From assembly GCF_005844325.1 (NCBI RefSeq), contig NZ_SPFY01000007.1:1-64000 (forward strand): a stretch of DNA of 64,000 bases, given 5' to 3'. Shown piece after piece: positions 28,756 through 36,202 of this stretch. Below the pieces are notes generated by a model. The model did no database searches. It was not told the origin of the DNA and was given only the letters and a program-made list of their open reading frames with translations. Position 1 is the stretch's first letter. Each line of letters opens with the position of its first letter. Source of the stretch: Collinsella aerofaciens (GTDB lineage Bacteria > Actinomycetota > Coriobacteriia > Coriobacteriales > Coriobacteriaceae). A program made the translations under genes and the position numbers.

Positions 28756-29961
28756 TTACGCCGAGGGCTCCTGCTGCGTAATGCAGTGGATATTTCCGCC
28801 ACCGAAGACGACCTGCTCGGACTGAACGCCGACGCACTTGTAGACGCCCTCGCCCCAGACCTCGTCGTAGATCTTCTGGAGCGTGTCAACGGCAAGCTGA
28901 TCGTTCTCGTCGCCGTACTGCGGGACGATAACGCCGTGGTTGGTGACCAGGTAGTTCATGTAGGAGGCGATCAGCGGCTCGTTGGCAACGCGCGGCTCGG
29001 CGTTCTCGTCGGCGTCGATGGTGTCGCAGGAAGCCTGGTCCATGAACAGCGGGTTCACAGGCATGCAGAGCTTGTAGACCTTCATCTTGCGGCCCTTGGC
29101 GTCAACGGCGTTGGAAAGGGTCTCGTAGACAGCATGGCATTGCTCGTAGAACGGATACTCGGGATCGTCGGTCCAGATGCAGGCCATGACGCCCGGAGCG
29201 ATGAACGTAGCGACATCATCGATGTGGCCGTTGGTCTCCTCGGGGTCGATGCCCTCCTTAACCCAGATGACCTTCTCGACACCCAGGTAATCCTTGAGGT
29301 GCTCGTCCATATAGGCGCGAAGTTCCTCACTCCAGGGCTCAAACTTCTTGTGGAACTTGGGCCAGATGGACTCGGGATCCTCTTCCTCCTCCAGAACCGC
29401 AGAGCAGGTGCGGCCCGGGGAAAGCAGGCACTGGTCGGTCACGACCACGGTGCCTTCGCCGTCGACGGTAATGGAGCCGCCCTCGAGGATCATGTCATCG
29501 GGACGATAGCGACGGCAGCCGGAAAGCTCAGCCATCTTAAGGGCAATCTGCTCGTCCTTGTCCCACGGGAAATAGAGGCCGTCGACGAGGCCGCCGTAGG
29601 CGTTGAAGTGCCAGTGGTTGGCGCGCTTATCGCCCTTGCCATTGATAACAAAAGTGGCAGCGGTGTCGCGGAACCAAGCGTCGTCGGTGGTCATCTCGAT
29701 AACGGTGACGTTCTCGTCTTCCTCAAAGGCGGCCTTGCAGTTGGCGTAGTCGGCCTGGTTTGCGCACATGGTGACCGGGGTGAACTCGGCGATGGCGCGA
29801 GCGATGGCGGCATACTGCTTCTGAGCCGGCTTGGCGCCGTGGGCCCAGGTGTCGGTGCGGTGGGGCCAACCCATCCACACGCGATCCTGCGGAGCGAACT
29901 CAGCGGGCATAAAGAAGCCGTCGGCCTTAGGGGTGGACTCGGACTCGGTGATCGTACGCAT
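28756..29961 (-). CDS. aguA: Agmatine deiminase
   Basis: Hydrolyses agmatine to N-carbamoylputrescine and ammonia. The 401-residue protein has MPAEFAPQDRVWMGWPHR at the N-terminus, EGGSITVDGEGTVVVTDQCLL in the middle, GHIDDVATFI (catalytic HxD) and the C-terminal catalytic cysteine in GGNIHCITQQEP. ATG at 29961 follows TTTGGAGGAAA; the frame runs open to 30195 but without similarity. The APC transporter upstream on the same strand may exchange agmatine and a polyamine product. No putrescine carbamoyltransferase or carbamate kinase is in the window. Confidence 0.94.
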   Translation of the reverse strand: MRTITESESTPKADGFFMPAEFAPQDRVWMGWPHRTDTWAHGAKPAQKQYAAIARAIAEFTPVTMCANQADYANCKAAFEEDENVTVIEMTTDDAWFRDTAATFVINGKGDKRANHWHFNAYGGLVDGLYFPWDKDEQIALKMAELSGCRRYRPDDMILEGGSITVDGEGTVVVTDQCLLSPGRTCSAVLEEEEDPESIWPKFHKKFEPWSEELRAYMDEHLKDYLGVEKVIWVKEGIDPEETNGHIDDVATFIAPGVMACIWTDDPEYPFYEQCHAVYETLSNAVDAKGRKMKVYKLCMPVNPLFMDQASCDTIDADENAEPRVANEPLIASYMNYLVTNHGVIVPQYGDENDQLAVDTLQKIYDEVWGEGVYKCVGVQSEQVVFGGGNIHCITQQEPSA

Positions 29962-30244
29962 AAGATTTCCTCCAAATCGAACGATCGCTTGCTGCGGGCG
30001 GGTTACCCTCAGCCTAAAACCAAGAGATGGTAGGCGCCCATTCCCCGGCAAAGGTCGGGGCGCCTGGCACCGGTTTTCACGGATGTCGCACCGGCAAGCG
30101 ACGACGTAACCCGGTGCGCGGAGACAAAACGCACGAAGGATACGGAAGAGAGATTGGGGCGGGCGGTGGTTACCGGAGCAATAGCTCACACCCACCTCAG
30201 AGAAAGGTTAGCAAACCTGTTGCTTGGGCACGCCTCCGAAGAGG

Positions 30245-30333
30245 CTAGAGCGTCCCGAGTCGGGAGCGACAAGCCCGACGAAGCGTACGTTGGTACGCGA
30301 GGAAGGTTGGAGCCCCGAATCCGGGTGCTCTAG
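30245..30333. repeat. Nested palindrome (family 5) overlapping the APC transporter stop
   Basis: Outer arms CTAGAGC/GCTCTAG, the right one containing the stop codon of the transporter gene. TCGGG..GC pairs with GC..CCGA, and an inner hairpin is GCGTAC-GTTG-GTACGC. The rest of the 29962-30329 gap (aguA upstream) also has a GGCGCC/GGCGCC stem near 30036-30062. Confidence 0.7.
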
Positions 30334-31760
30334 TCCTCCTCGGACTCCTCAGCGAGGCGCTGAGCAGCCAGCTCGGGAGTGAGACCCTTGTACTCGGTCT
30401 CGCGGCCCTTAGCACTGACGACGCGGACAACCTCGCCAATAAGCAAGAGCACGATGAAGATGACGATCATCGGGACCTTATCGCCAATCTCATCGACAGA
30501 GAACGGAATCAGCGTTGCAACGATAGCCAGAATCAGCTCAATGCAGGGAATAGCCAGCATGACCTTCATCATGGCGCCCTTAAACGGGAACGTAAAGATA
30601 CGCTCACGGTTGGGGTCGTTCTTACGAAGGTTGAGGAATGCCGGGAACATCGGGATGTAGGTCAGCAGCAGGAAGACAACGGAGGTACCGAAGAGCATCC
30701 AGAAGACACCGTTGGAGATGGCGTCGATGGGAACCAGCTGCAGGCACAGCACCAGGGAGGCAACGATGGCGTTGACCAGGTTGGCGCCGTTGGGCATGTC
30801 GTCATCCGAGATCATCGAGGCGAAGACCTTGGGCATGTTGCCATGCTCGGCAGCATAGCGAGCGACGGAGTTGACGCCGAAGGACCAGGCAGCCATGTTG
30901 GCGAACAGCGTGATCAGGAAGGCGATGCAGATGACCTTAAAGATCATGGAATCGCCCACAATAGTCTGGACAGCGTAGATCATGCCGTAGTCGGGATCGA
31001 TGGAATCGGCCGACACAGCAGCGCCGATGCCAAAGCCAGCGAACAAGTAGATCACGGCGATGGACAGGCCGCCGACGATGATAGCCTTGGGGATATCGCG
31101 AGCGGGATCGGCCATATCGTCGGTCATGGTGCAGATGACCTCGAAGCCCATGAAGTTAAAGATGATGATCGACAGGTAGCCAAGCGCGTTGGTGTTGGTG
31201 AGCTCGGGCAAGAAGGTGGCAGCGGACATATCGTTCGCAAAGCCGTTCTCCATGGCGTACCAGATGCCCAAAGCGCCGACGATAACGGCAACGGCAACCT
31301 TGATGATGGCGCCGCCGTTCAGGACCCACTCGGAGTCGGCAGCCTTGGAGCGACCCATAAGATAGACGATCCACACAAAGGCAAGGTCGATACCAATCTT
31401 GGCAATCAGATTGAACTCGACGCCAAAGACCATGCCCAAAATGTCCGGGAACATAGTGGCCAGCGAGGCAATCCACAGCGGGTAGTTAACCCAGTAGTAG
31501 TACGAAATGCGGGCGCCCCACTTGTCGCCCAGGCCATCGCGTACCCAGTCGTAAATGCCACCCTCACCGTCATAGGTAGTGCCGAGCTCGGCAACGACCA
31601 TGCCATAAGGGAGCAGGAAGGTCAGAATCAGGAAGATCCACCAGAAGAACTGCTGGTTGCCAATGGCAGCAGCAGGTGCGGCGGCCTCGCAAACGAAGAC
31701 GACGCAGATGATGGTCGAGATGACCGTCAAGAAGGAAAGCTTTTTCTTTCCGTCGCTCAT
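30330..31760 (-). CDS. APC-family amino-acid/polyamine antiporter
   Basis: 476 residues, about 12 membrane segments. The start has the APC helix 1 region (FLTVISTIICVVFVCEAAAPAAAIGNQ), the middle LSIIIFNFMGFEVICTMTDDMADPARDIPKA matches the helix 6 gate region. Position directly before agmatine deiminase suggests agmatine-putrescine exchange (AguD-like), but substrate cannot be proved from sequence. ATG at 31760 follows AAGGAG. Confidence 0.85.
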   Translation of the reverse strand: MSDGKKKLSFLTVISTIICVVFVCEAAAPAAAIGNQQFFWWIFLILTFLLPYGMVVAELGTTYDGEGGIYDWVRDGLGDKWGARISYYYWVNYPLWIASLATMFPDILGMVFGVEFNLIAKIGIDLAFVWIVYLMGRSKAADSEWVLNGGAIIKVAVAVIVGALGIWYAMENGFANDMSAATFLPELTNTNALGYLSIIIFNFMGFEVICTMTDDMADPARDIPKAIIVGGLSIAVIYLFAGFGIGAAVSADSIDPDYGMIYAVQTIVGDSMIFKVICIAFLITLFANMAAWSFGVNSVARYAAEHGNMPKVFASMISDDDMPNGANLVNAIVASLVLCLQLVPIDAISNGVFWMLFGTSVVFLLLTYIPMFPAFLNLRKNDPNRERIFTFPFKGAMMKVMLAIPCIELILAIVATLIPFSVDEIGDKVPMIVIFIVLLLIGEVVRVVSAKGRETEYKGLTPELAAQRLAEESEED

Positions 31761-34292: not shown

Positions 34293-35067
34293 CGGAGCCC
34301 TCACCGCCCATCATGGCAACGACCTCCATAATGCGGTCGAAGAACTCTCGGCGGTCGGTGTCGCCGCGGCGCAGCTCGGTGAAGATCTTGCCGTCGCGGA
34401 TAAACAGCACACGGCTCGTGTAGCTGGCGGCAAAGCTGTCGTGCGTGACCATGAGCACGGTGGCGCGCAGGCGGCGATTGAGGGCCTCCAGGCTCTCGAG
34501 CAGCAGGCGAGCGCTCTTGGAATCGAGGGCGCCGGTGGGCTCGTCGGCCATAATCATGGTGGGGTCGGTGACGAGCGCGCGAGCCGCGGCAACGCGCTGC
34601 TGCTGACCGCCGGACATCTGGTAGGGATACTTGTCGAGAACCTGACTGATAGACAGACGCGCGGCTACATCCTGCACGCGGGTTGAGATCTCTGCCGAGT
34701 TTGTGCGGGCGATGGTGAGCGGCAGGGCGATGTTCTCGCGTGCCGTGAGCGTATCGAGCAGGTTGGAGTCCTGGAAGATAAAGCCGAGCTCCTCGCGGCG
34801 GAACTGCGAAAGCTTAGCCTGCTTCATACGCGTCACGTCCTGGCCGTTGATGCGGATGGTGCCGCTCGTGGCGCTATCGATGGTCGAGACGCAGTTGAGC
34901 AACGTCGACTTGCCCGAGCCCGAGGCGCCCATGATGCCAACGAATTCGGCGCGGTTGACGGTAAAGCTGACGTCGTTGAGCGCGCGGGTCACGTTGCCCA
35001 GCGCTCCATATACCTTTTCGAGATGCGCGACCTCCAGTACCGGGGTCGCCATGTGCGTGGTTTGCAT
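34282..35067 (-). CDS. ABC transporter ATPase (BceA/LolD-type)
   Basis: 261 residues. Walker A GASGSGKST, Q-loop FIFQDSNLLD, signature MSGGQQQRVAAARAL, Walker B MIMADEPTGALD and H-loop VTHDSF are all intact. Partner of the overlapping FtsX-like permease. Start 35067 follows GAAAGGACTCGGT. Confidence 0.92.
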   Translation of the reverse strand: MQTTHMATPVLEVAHLEKVYGALGNVTRALNDVSFTVNRAEFVGIMGASGSGKSTLLNCVSTIDSATSGTIRINGQDVTRMKQAKLSQFRREELGFIFQDSNLLDTLTARENIALPLTIARTNSAEISTRVQDVAARLSISQVLDKYPYQMSGGQQQRVAAARALVTDPTMIMADEPTGALDSKSARLLLESLEALNRRLRATVLMVTHDSFAASYTSRVLFIRDGKIFTELRRGDTDRREFFDRIMEVVAMMGGEGSDAL

Positions 35068-35215
35068 ACCGAGTCCTTTCTTGCAATTAGTCTACGGCAT
35101 CTATAGTCGCAAGAAGACGAGTCGGCTACCATCGATATGGCTTACGCTTGCCTTACCGTTGTGTAAGGTACGGGTAGCTAGCCTGTCACGTGTTGATGTT
35201 GAGAGAGGACTCCTG

Positions 35216-36202
35216 TTGAAGACTGTTCATGTTGCCGCTGGGATCATTCGCAAGGAAGGATCCGACGAGCTACTGGCCGTGCAGCGCGGCTATGGCGACA
35301 TGCAGGGACTTTGGGAGTTCCCAGGTGGCAAGCTCATGCGCGGCGAGACGCCCGAGGACGCCGTGCGCCGCGAGCTCATGGAAGAGCTGCAGGTAAAAGT
35401 CACCAACCTGCGCGATTTCTATACCGTTGAGTATGACTACCCCGATTTTCATCTCTCCATGGAGTGCTACTACTGCTCGCTCGCTGATAAATCCGATGAG
35501 CCCCAGAAGCACGACCGCCAGCTCGATATCCGCTGGATTCCGCGCACTTCGCTTGCCACGGTGGAATGGATGCCCGCCGATAAGGGGCTTATCGATGCTC
35601 TGATTGAGTTGAAGGAAGATCGGCTCGAGGCAAGCTCCGCCGATGACGCCGCGCCCAACACAGCCGACAAACCCGCCGCCAAACCCAAGCGCGCACCTAA
35701 GCGCCGTAGCAAAAAGCGCCCCAAGCCCGGCCTGCTGGACGGCATCGATACCTCGGACCTTTCTGCCGACGAGCGTGAGCTCGTGCGCCGTCGCGCCGCT
35801 ATAAAAAAGTCCATGAAGGGCAACAAGCGTGCGAACACCAAACCTGAGCTGCTCGTTCGCCAGCGCCTGCGCGCCGCAGGCCTTACGGGATACCGTCTGG
35901 AATGGAAGGTGCCCGGAAAACCCGACATCGCCTTTCCCGGGCGCAAGATCGCCATCTTCGTCAACGGCTGCTTTTGGCATCGCTGCCCCAAATGCAACCC
36001 AAGTCAGCCCAAGCGCAATGTTGAGTTTTGGGAGGCAAAGTTCCGCCGCAACGTCGAGCGCGACCGCGCTGCCGTGGCAGCACTCACTCAAATGGGCTGG
36101 ACACCCATAACCATCTGGGAATGTGAGCTCAAAAAGGACCGCATCGACGCCACGATGGAAAAGGTCATCGAGCAGGTGCGCACCGCAGAGCCGCAGCGCT
36201 AG
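35216..36202 (+). CDS. NUDIX hydrolase fused to a Vsr-type endonuclease
   Basis: 328 residues. Residues 1-130 form a MutT-like NUDIX domain with the box G38-x5-E44-x7-REL-x-EE (GKLMRGETPEDAVRREL). A Lys/Pro-rich linker at about 140-172 leads to a very-short-patch-repair endonuclease at about 195-322: NTKPELLVRQRLRAAG, the catalytic Asp in GKPDIAFPG (D237), FVNGCFWHRCPKC and FWEAKFRRNVERDR. Vsr nicks T:G mismatches and MutT-like enzymes remove oxidised nucleotides, so both fit mutation avoidance. TTG start at 35216 is preceded by AGAGGA; no in-frame ATG gives a better start. No cytosine methylase gene is nearby. Confidence 0.88.
   Translation: MKTVHVAAGIIRKEGSDELLAVQRGYGDMQGLWEFPGGKLMRGETPEDAVRRELMEELQVKVTNLRDFYTVEYDYPDFHLSMECYYCSLADKSDEPQKHDRQLDIRWIPRTSLATVEWMPADKGLIDALIELKEDRLEASSADDAAPNTADKPAAKPKRAPKRRSKKRPKPGLLDGIDTSDLSADERELVRRRAAIKKSMKGNKRANTKPELLVRQRLRAAGLTGYRLEWKVPGKPDIAFPGRKIAIFVNGCFWHRCPKCNPSQPKRNVEFWEAKFRRNVERDRAAVAALTQMGWTPITIWECELKKDRIDATMEKVIEQVRTAEPQR

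Follow-up and report, generated by a model that had tools for sequence, protein, structure and literature searches.

A NUDIX–Vsr fusion conserved in the family of Collinsella: a candidate bifunctional mutation-avoidance enzyme

Introduction

Why should a NUDIX domain and a Vsr endonuclease share a single polypeptide? The question is raised by one gene in a stretch of 64,000 nucleotides of Collinsella aerofaciens DNA (contig NZ_SPFY01000007.1, positions 1 to 64,000), referred to here as the window. The original prediction, made from the letters of the sequence, was of a combined mutation-avoidance protein with MutT-like removal of 8-oxo-dGTP at one end and a Vsr domain at the other; no description of such a fusion was found in the literature searched. 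The reading favored here, with a probability of roughly 0.55, is that the gene encodes a bifunctional, chromosomally fixed mutation-avoidance enzyme in which the NUDIX domain would clear an abnormal deoxynucleoside triphosphate, most likely 5-methyl-dCTP, and the Vsr domain would start T:G repair.

The fusion gene and its boundaries

The gene and its parts are as follows:

35216..36202, + strand: NUDIX–Vsr fusion gene, 328 aa, TTG start, stop codon at 36200–36202
35206..35209, + strand: ribosome-binding site AGGA, with 6-nt spacing to the TTG, as read from the sequence
35216..35611, + strand: NUDIX domain, predicted MutT/NudG-like pyrophosphohydrolase, residues 1–132
35327..35395, + strand: Nudix box, residues 38–60, with G38, E44, R52, E53, E56 and E57
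35612..35788, + strand: Lys/Arg/Pro/Ala-rich linker, residues 133–191, 59 aa, of which 15 are K or R
35789..36181, + strand: Vsr endonuclease domain, residues 192–322, with key residues M200, E211, D237, N250, C252, F253, W254, H255, K275, N279, D283 and C303
34282..35067, − strand: divergent ABC-transporter ATPase gene, a marker of the site with no part in the function

The joining of a NUDIX box and a Vsr domain in one frame was borne out by these exact coordinates and by the profile scores. Pfam PF00293 (NUDIX) matches residues 5–123 with an E-value of 5.7e-19 (68.9 bits, against a cut-off of 21.1), Pfam PF03852 (Vsr) matches residues 196–256 with 4.5e-17 (62.1 bits, cut-off 27), and the NCBIfam model TIGR00632 "vsr" scores 108.2 bits, exceeding its cut-off of 97.85. 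The predicted Lys/Pro linker is likewise present, in the somewhat broader composition given above. Longer open reading frames of 499, 693 and 777 aa are upstream run-on frames that bring in no extra domains; the 499-aa frame, which is in the same frame and begins at 34703, runs antisense to the ABC-transporter gene.

The predicted structure of the 328-aa protein consists of two confident lobes (mean pLDDT 80.7, pTM 0.44), with predicted disorder in linker residues 136–169. In relatives, the length of the linker ranges from a few residues to more than 100. The NUDIX lobe superimposes on MutT (3a6t) with a Z score of 18.9, on MutT2 with 5mdCTP (5zro) with 18.3, and on 3gwy with 17.0, while residues 206–325 match the E. 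coli Vsr–DNA complex (1cw0) with a Z score of 15.9 over 119 residues. Elsewhere in the window, a peptidyl-arginine deiminase family gene adjoins an amino-acid permease gene (28756–30195 and 30330–31760, − strand).

Conservation in the family

A protein search found a match in all 65 genomes of the family to which Collinsella belongs, and in 60 of these, from five of its six genera, both domains lie in one open frame. (These 60, as read from their open frames, are the window's genome, the 29 genomes behind loci L003–L031 and the 30 behind L142–L171.) The carriers include named isolates of Collinsella aerofaciens, C. intestinalis, C. phocaeensis and C. tanakaei. A frame error or a chimera is ruled out by this identical architecture in 60 genomes and in named isolates; the Vsr domain is found unfused in one sister genus only, all four genomes of which (genus g2) have a stand-alone Vsr. 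In one further genome, G028, the NUDIX domain is present and Vsr has been lost; the NUDIX domain of that genome shares its open frame with a Gfo/Idh/MocA oxidoreductase that lies upstream (L176:1974–3725).

Purifying selection on both domains is strong, with dN/dS among close species of about 0.03 for NUDIX and 0.02 for Vsr, against about 0.17 for the linker, and both retain their catalytic residues across the family. The fused clade is monophyletic in the trees of both domains (support 98/99 for NUDIX, 100/99 for Vsr). The divergent ABC-transporter ATPase gene is a conserved neighbor in most relatives, which indicates an inherited core gene rather than a mobile one. Outside the family, the same architecture occurs in one Prevotella genome, which is discussed below.

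The Vsr half

Profile and residues alike place the C-terminal domain in the Vsr family. In the 1cw0 structure, M14, F67 and W68 wedge open the mismatch, and K89 and N93 contact the T:G pair. The equivalents of E25, D51, H69 and D97 (E. coli numbering) are E211, D237, H255 and D283, which are invariant in the fused proteins, as are the equivalents of M14, C66, W68, K89, N93 and C117; the position of F67 is either F or Y. With the E. coli enzyme, then, the fused Vsr shares its fold, its catalytic, wedge and mismatch-contacting residues and its zinc cysteines, and relatives in its clade adjoin C5-methylases, as Vsr does with Dcm. It differs in its fusion to a NUDIX domain, in a C/C/C/C zinc site instead of C/H/C/C, in the lack of an adjacent methylase in most genomes, in an N at the H64 position and, probably, in a sequence context less strict than CTWGG.

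The H64 equivalent is N in every fused protein, which counts against the favored reading; N, D, M, Q or R also occur there in other Vsr sequences. V.NgoAXIII of Neisseria is functional with a D at this position and cuts T:G whatever the context (PMC12907096, PMC6116569), so H64 does not strictly define a Vsr. Like the fusion, V.NgoAXIII and VsrA of Caulobacter have H64 replaced and are not linked to one methylase gene, and their activity extends, or may extend, to a wide range of contexts (PMC6116569, PMC12907096). They are, however, stand-alone proteins, have D rather than N at H64, and belong to hosts with MutS–MutL.

Is there a partner methylase? The statement that no cytosine methylase is near holds within the window, but a C5-methylase lies on the same contig 34 kb downstream of the fusion, where it is accompanied by an EcoRII-type nuclease (C58:70282–72745, 6–9 kb beyond the end of the window). 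A C5-methylase (PF00145) was found in 45 of the 65 family genomes. By hand count, 17 fusion-bearing genomes, including the one-contig genome G006, have no detectable C5-methylase, and a role confined to 5-methylcytosine thus fails to explain why the fusion has been kept there. Vsr presence in the family does not track a partner methylase, and with the methylase 34 kb away here and none detected in other fused genomes, the enzyme does not appear to depend on a single Dcm-like methylase. In genome G046 an Eco29kI-type restriction–modification (R-M) pair directly adjoins the fusion (L263:6837–8604).

The NUDIX half

What does the NUDIX domain act upon? E44, R52, E53, E56 and E57 do not vary among the fused proteins; the only residue of the Nudix box that is changed is its last G, a non-catalytic one, which has become Q59. 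The domain is a Nudix hydrolase that falls short of the curated cut-offs of both MutT and NudG: it scores 84.2 bits with the MutT equivalog TIGR00586 (cut-off 97.9) and 84.6 bits with a second MutT profile, compared to 61.2 bits with the NudG-type PRK10546 (cut-off 156). At the position where N119 of MutT reads 8-oxoG, there is a D (D122 here) in 32 of 34 fused representatives, and this residue aligns with the Asp of NudG, 3gwy and MutT2 at the base-recognition position (PAD motif).

The best match of the window's NUDIX among PDB sequences is 3gwy, at 62.3 bits; its lead over E. coli MutT (59.7 bits) is within noise. In an EcoRII-type operon of a Bacteroidales genome (L108), by contrast, the NUDIX scores 90.0 bits with 3gwy, far above its 55.7 bits with MutT. 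The 3gwy protein, Q5LBB1 of Bacteroides fragilis, has a kcat/Km of 4.8e6 on 5-methyl-dCTP and 4.4e6 on 5-hydroxymethyl-dCTP (PMC5158307). Q5LBB1, E. coli NudG and M. smegmatis MutT2 are the closest or near-closest relatives by sequence and fold and have the Asp in common with the fused NUDIX, although they are single-domain proteins with about 30% identity to it. E. coli MutT shares the fold and the catalytic glutamates and gives the highest profile scores; the fused NUDIX differs from it in the change of N119, the sub-cut-off score and the Vsr partner. Neither the NUDIX tree, in which long branches lead to the characterised enzymes, nor the structural ranking, in which the Z values are tied within about 2, resolves the substrate. 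On balance, 5-methyl-dCTP is slightly favored over 8-oxo-dGTP, though by no decisive margin, and one enzyme may hydrolyze both.

This bears on the strongest rival explanation, in which the NUDIX domain is the housekeeping MutT of the family, directed at 8-oxo-dGTP, and the protein is a fusion of two unrelated avoidance steps, with Vsr acting on T:G. The fused NUDIX could be such a MutT, since it is the sole full-length MutT-type NUDIX in the genome of the window and in most relatives. The MutT profiles score highest, one fused protein (G025) passes the curated MutT cut-off with 111.9 against 97.9 bits, the structural match to MutT with 8-oxo-dGMP is as good as any, and the conservation of the fusion in genomes with no C5-methylase also fits. 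Against this stand the loss of the 8-oxoG-reading Asn in nearly all representatives and two genomes, G002 and G004, that have no MutT at all. An 8-oxo-dGTP role also leaves the R-M neighborhoods described in the next section unexplained. The explanation is a tentative one, and is considered clearly less probable than an enzyme directed at 5-methyl-dCTP. As to the originally proposed MutT-like activity, the Nudix box is intact and the MutT profile scores are high, but 5-methyl-dCTP is at least as likely a substrate as 8-oxo-dGTP.

A second origin and the Bacteroidales neighborhoods

The Prevotella genome (L057) has its own NUDIX–Vsr fusion, of 306 aa, which groups with Bacteroidales in the trees of both domains. 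These well-supported branches require that the fusion arose at least twice, the Prevotella protein independently. Among Bacteroidales loci in the genome collection with this type of NUDIX, Vsr is fused (L057) or on the same strand within 2.2 kb (10 more) in 11 of 12, whereas in Bacillota it is linked in 0 of 13; as the query contained both domains, linked pairs may be overrepresented here. In the family of the Prevotella genome (201 genomes), Vsr was present in about 82 among the matches listed, and at least eight of these have a NUDIX within about 2 kb, where by a rough estimate fewer than one would be expected by chance (hand count).

Several of these loci are R-M operons. In two of them (L106:3457–6778 and L108:3609–6890), a C5-methylase and an EcoRII nuclease are followed by NUDIX and Vsr genes, which occur in either order with small overlaps; an EcoRII-type nuclease is also found in L065. 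Other R-M loci with a C5-methylase are of the HaeIII type (L096) and the HpaII type (L267), and in L269 a C5-methylase is found with an HNH nuclease. In all, at least seven NUDIX genes have a C5-methylase no more than about 5 kb away (hand count, among the matches listed). Separately, in class and archaeal-type relatives of the fused Vsr (L067, L069, L071), the Vsr gene and a C5-methylase gene share about 28 bp, an arrangement like that of E. coli dcm and vsr.

What would the fused enzyme do?

In the favored reading of a bifunctional enzyme, the NUDIX domain would hydrolyze an abnormal deoxynucleoside triphosphate at the alpha–beta bond, most likely 5-methyl-dCTP, which would be supplied by salvage from the turnover of DNA containing 5-methylcytosine. 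Its removal would prevent incorporation of 5-methylcytosine at unprotected sites. The Vsr domain would intercalate at T:G mismatches arising from deamination of 5-methylcytosine and nick 5′ of the T, probably in a relaxed sequence context, and the nick would lead to very-short-patch repair, completed by polymerase and ligase. Tethering would hold both activities at one copy number or at one site. We infer both activities, along with the substrate and the context specificity; what the sequences themselves show is the fused architecture, its conservation, its independent recurrence, the intact residues and the repeated linkage to Vsr and C5-methylases.

The notion of a combined mutation-avoidance protein has the strongest support, from the retention of both catalytic sets, purifying selection, fixation throughout the family and the recurrent pairing beside methylases in Bacteroidales. 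It has changed in two respects, namely in the NUDIX substrate and in the methylase, which exists in this genome but not in some others that keep the fusion. New here are the independent Prevotella fusion, the Bacteroidales neighbor pairs, the finding that the assayed NUDIX nearest in sequence, by a marginal lead over MutT, hydrolyzes 5-methyl-dCTP, the frequency of Vsr in a class with no MutS above the cut-off, and the persistence of the fusion where no C5-methylase is detectable. If true, the reading joins two steps commonly considered in isolation: cleaning of the nucleotide pool and repair of mismatches caused by methylation. It would also offer a candidate answer to the question, raised in PMC5290159, of how Coriobacteriia, which are common in the human gut, limit mutation with neither MutS–MutL nor NucS. 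The Bacteroidales operons would then predict a general rule, by which R-M systems that make 5-methylcytosine can carry a pool-cleaning NUDIX in addition to Vsr.

The mismatch-repair background

Might Vsr instead serve as a general endonuclease for T:G, and perhaps other mismatches, replacing MutS–MutL and NucS independently of methylation? A published survey found neither MutS–MutL nor NucS in Coriobacteriia (PMC5290159). Here, no MutS above the cut-off was found in the 296 genomes of the class, with a single sub-threshold match of 20 bits in the family of Collinsella; NucS matches in that family are all partial (about 40 aa, 20–28 bits), and those in the class are fragmentary apart from one of 31 bits. 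Vsr, on the other hand, is present in 199 of the 296 genomes and in 78 of 125 genera, and is retained where there is no C5-methylase. Elsewhere in the class it is fused to glycosylases: two triple fusions (L042:5284–6849 in Ellagibacter, 521 aa, and L203:1462–3189 in a second genus, 575 aa) combine a deoxyinosine/uracil-type DNA glycosylase (TIGR04274/UDG), Vsr and GIY-YIG, and in a relative from the same order (genome G152, L178:1314–2435), an AlkA-like HhH-GPD glycosylase is joined to Vsr in a protein of 373 aa. The role would resemble that of NucS/EndoMS in other Actinobacteria, which performs methylase-independent T:G repair in the absence of MutS–MutL but belongs to a separate protein family, with no convincing member in the family of Collinsella.

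However, 97 of the 296 genomes have neither Vsr nor MutS, the known Vsr enzymes are limited to T:G, and post-replicative repair needs a means of strand discrimination, none of which was found. A general mismatch endonuclease is accordingly considered improbable. The same caution applies to the wider proposal that a context-independent Vsr forms the core of an undescribed replacement pathway in Coriobacteriia, fixed with a nucleotide-pool NUDIX in the family of Collinsella and with base-excision glycosylases elsewhere, which has only an outside chance of being correct. Vsr also shares a reading frame with a GNAT acetyltransferase (L180:1791–2858) and with an aminoacyl-tRNA editing domain (L179:1230–2303), so that not every Vsr fusion points to repair.

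The least likely explanation is an anti-phage or R-M accessory module that, for example, degrades modified phage dNTPs and has no part in mutation avoidance: it would fit the linkage to Bacteroidales R-M operons and to the Eco29kI-type pair, as well as the matches to PADLOC models PDC-S07 and Vsr, but in Collinsella the fusion is a core syntenic gene beside an ABC transporter and not part of a mobile island. The phage-defense candidate PDC-S07 matches here with 127.3 bits, compared to 130.7 bits for E. coli MutT and 147.3 bits for NudG, and is thus unspecific, since both controls match as well or better.
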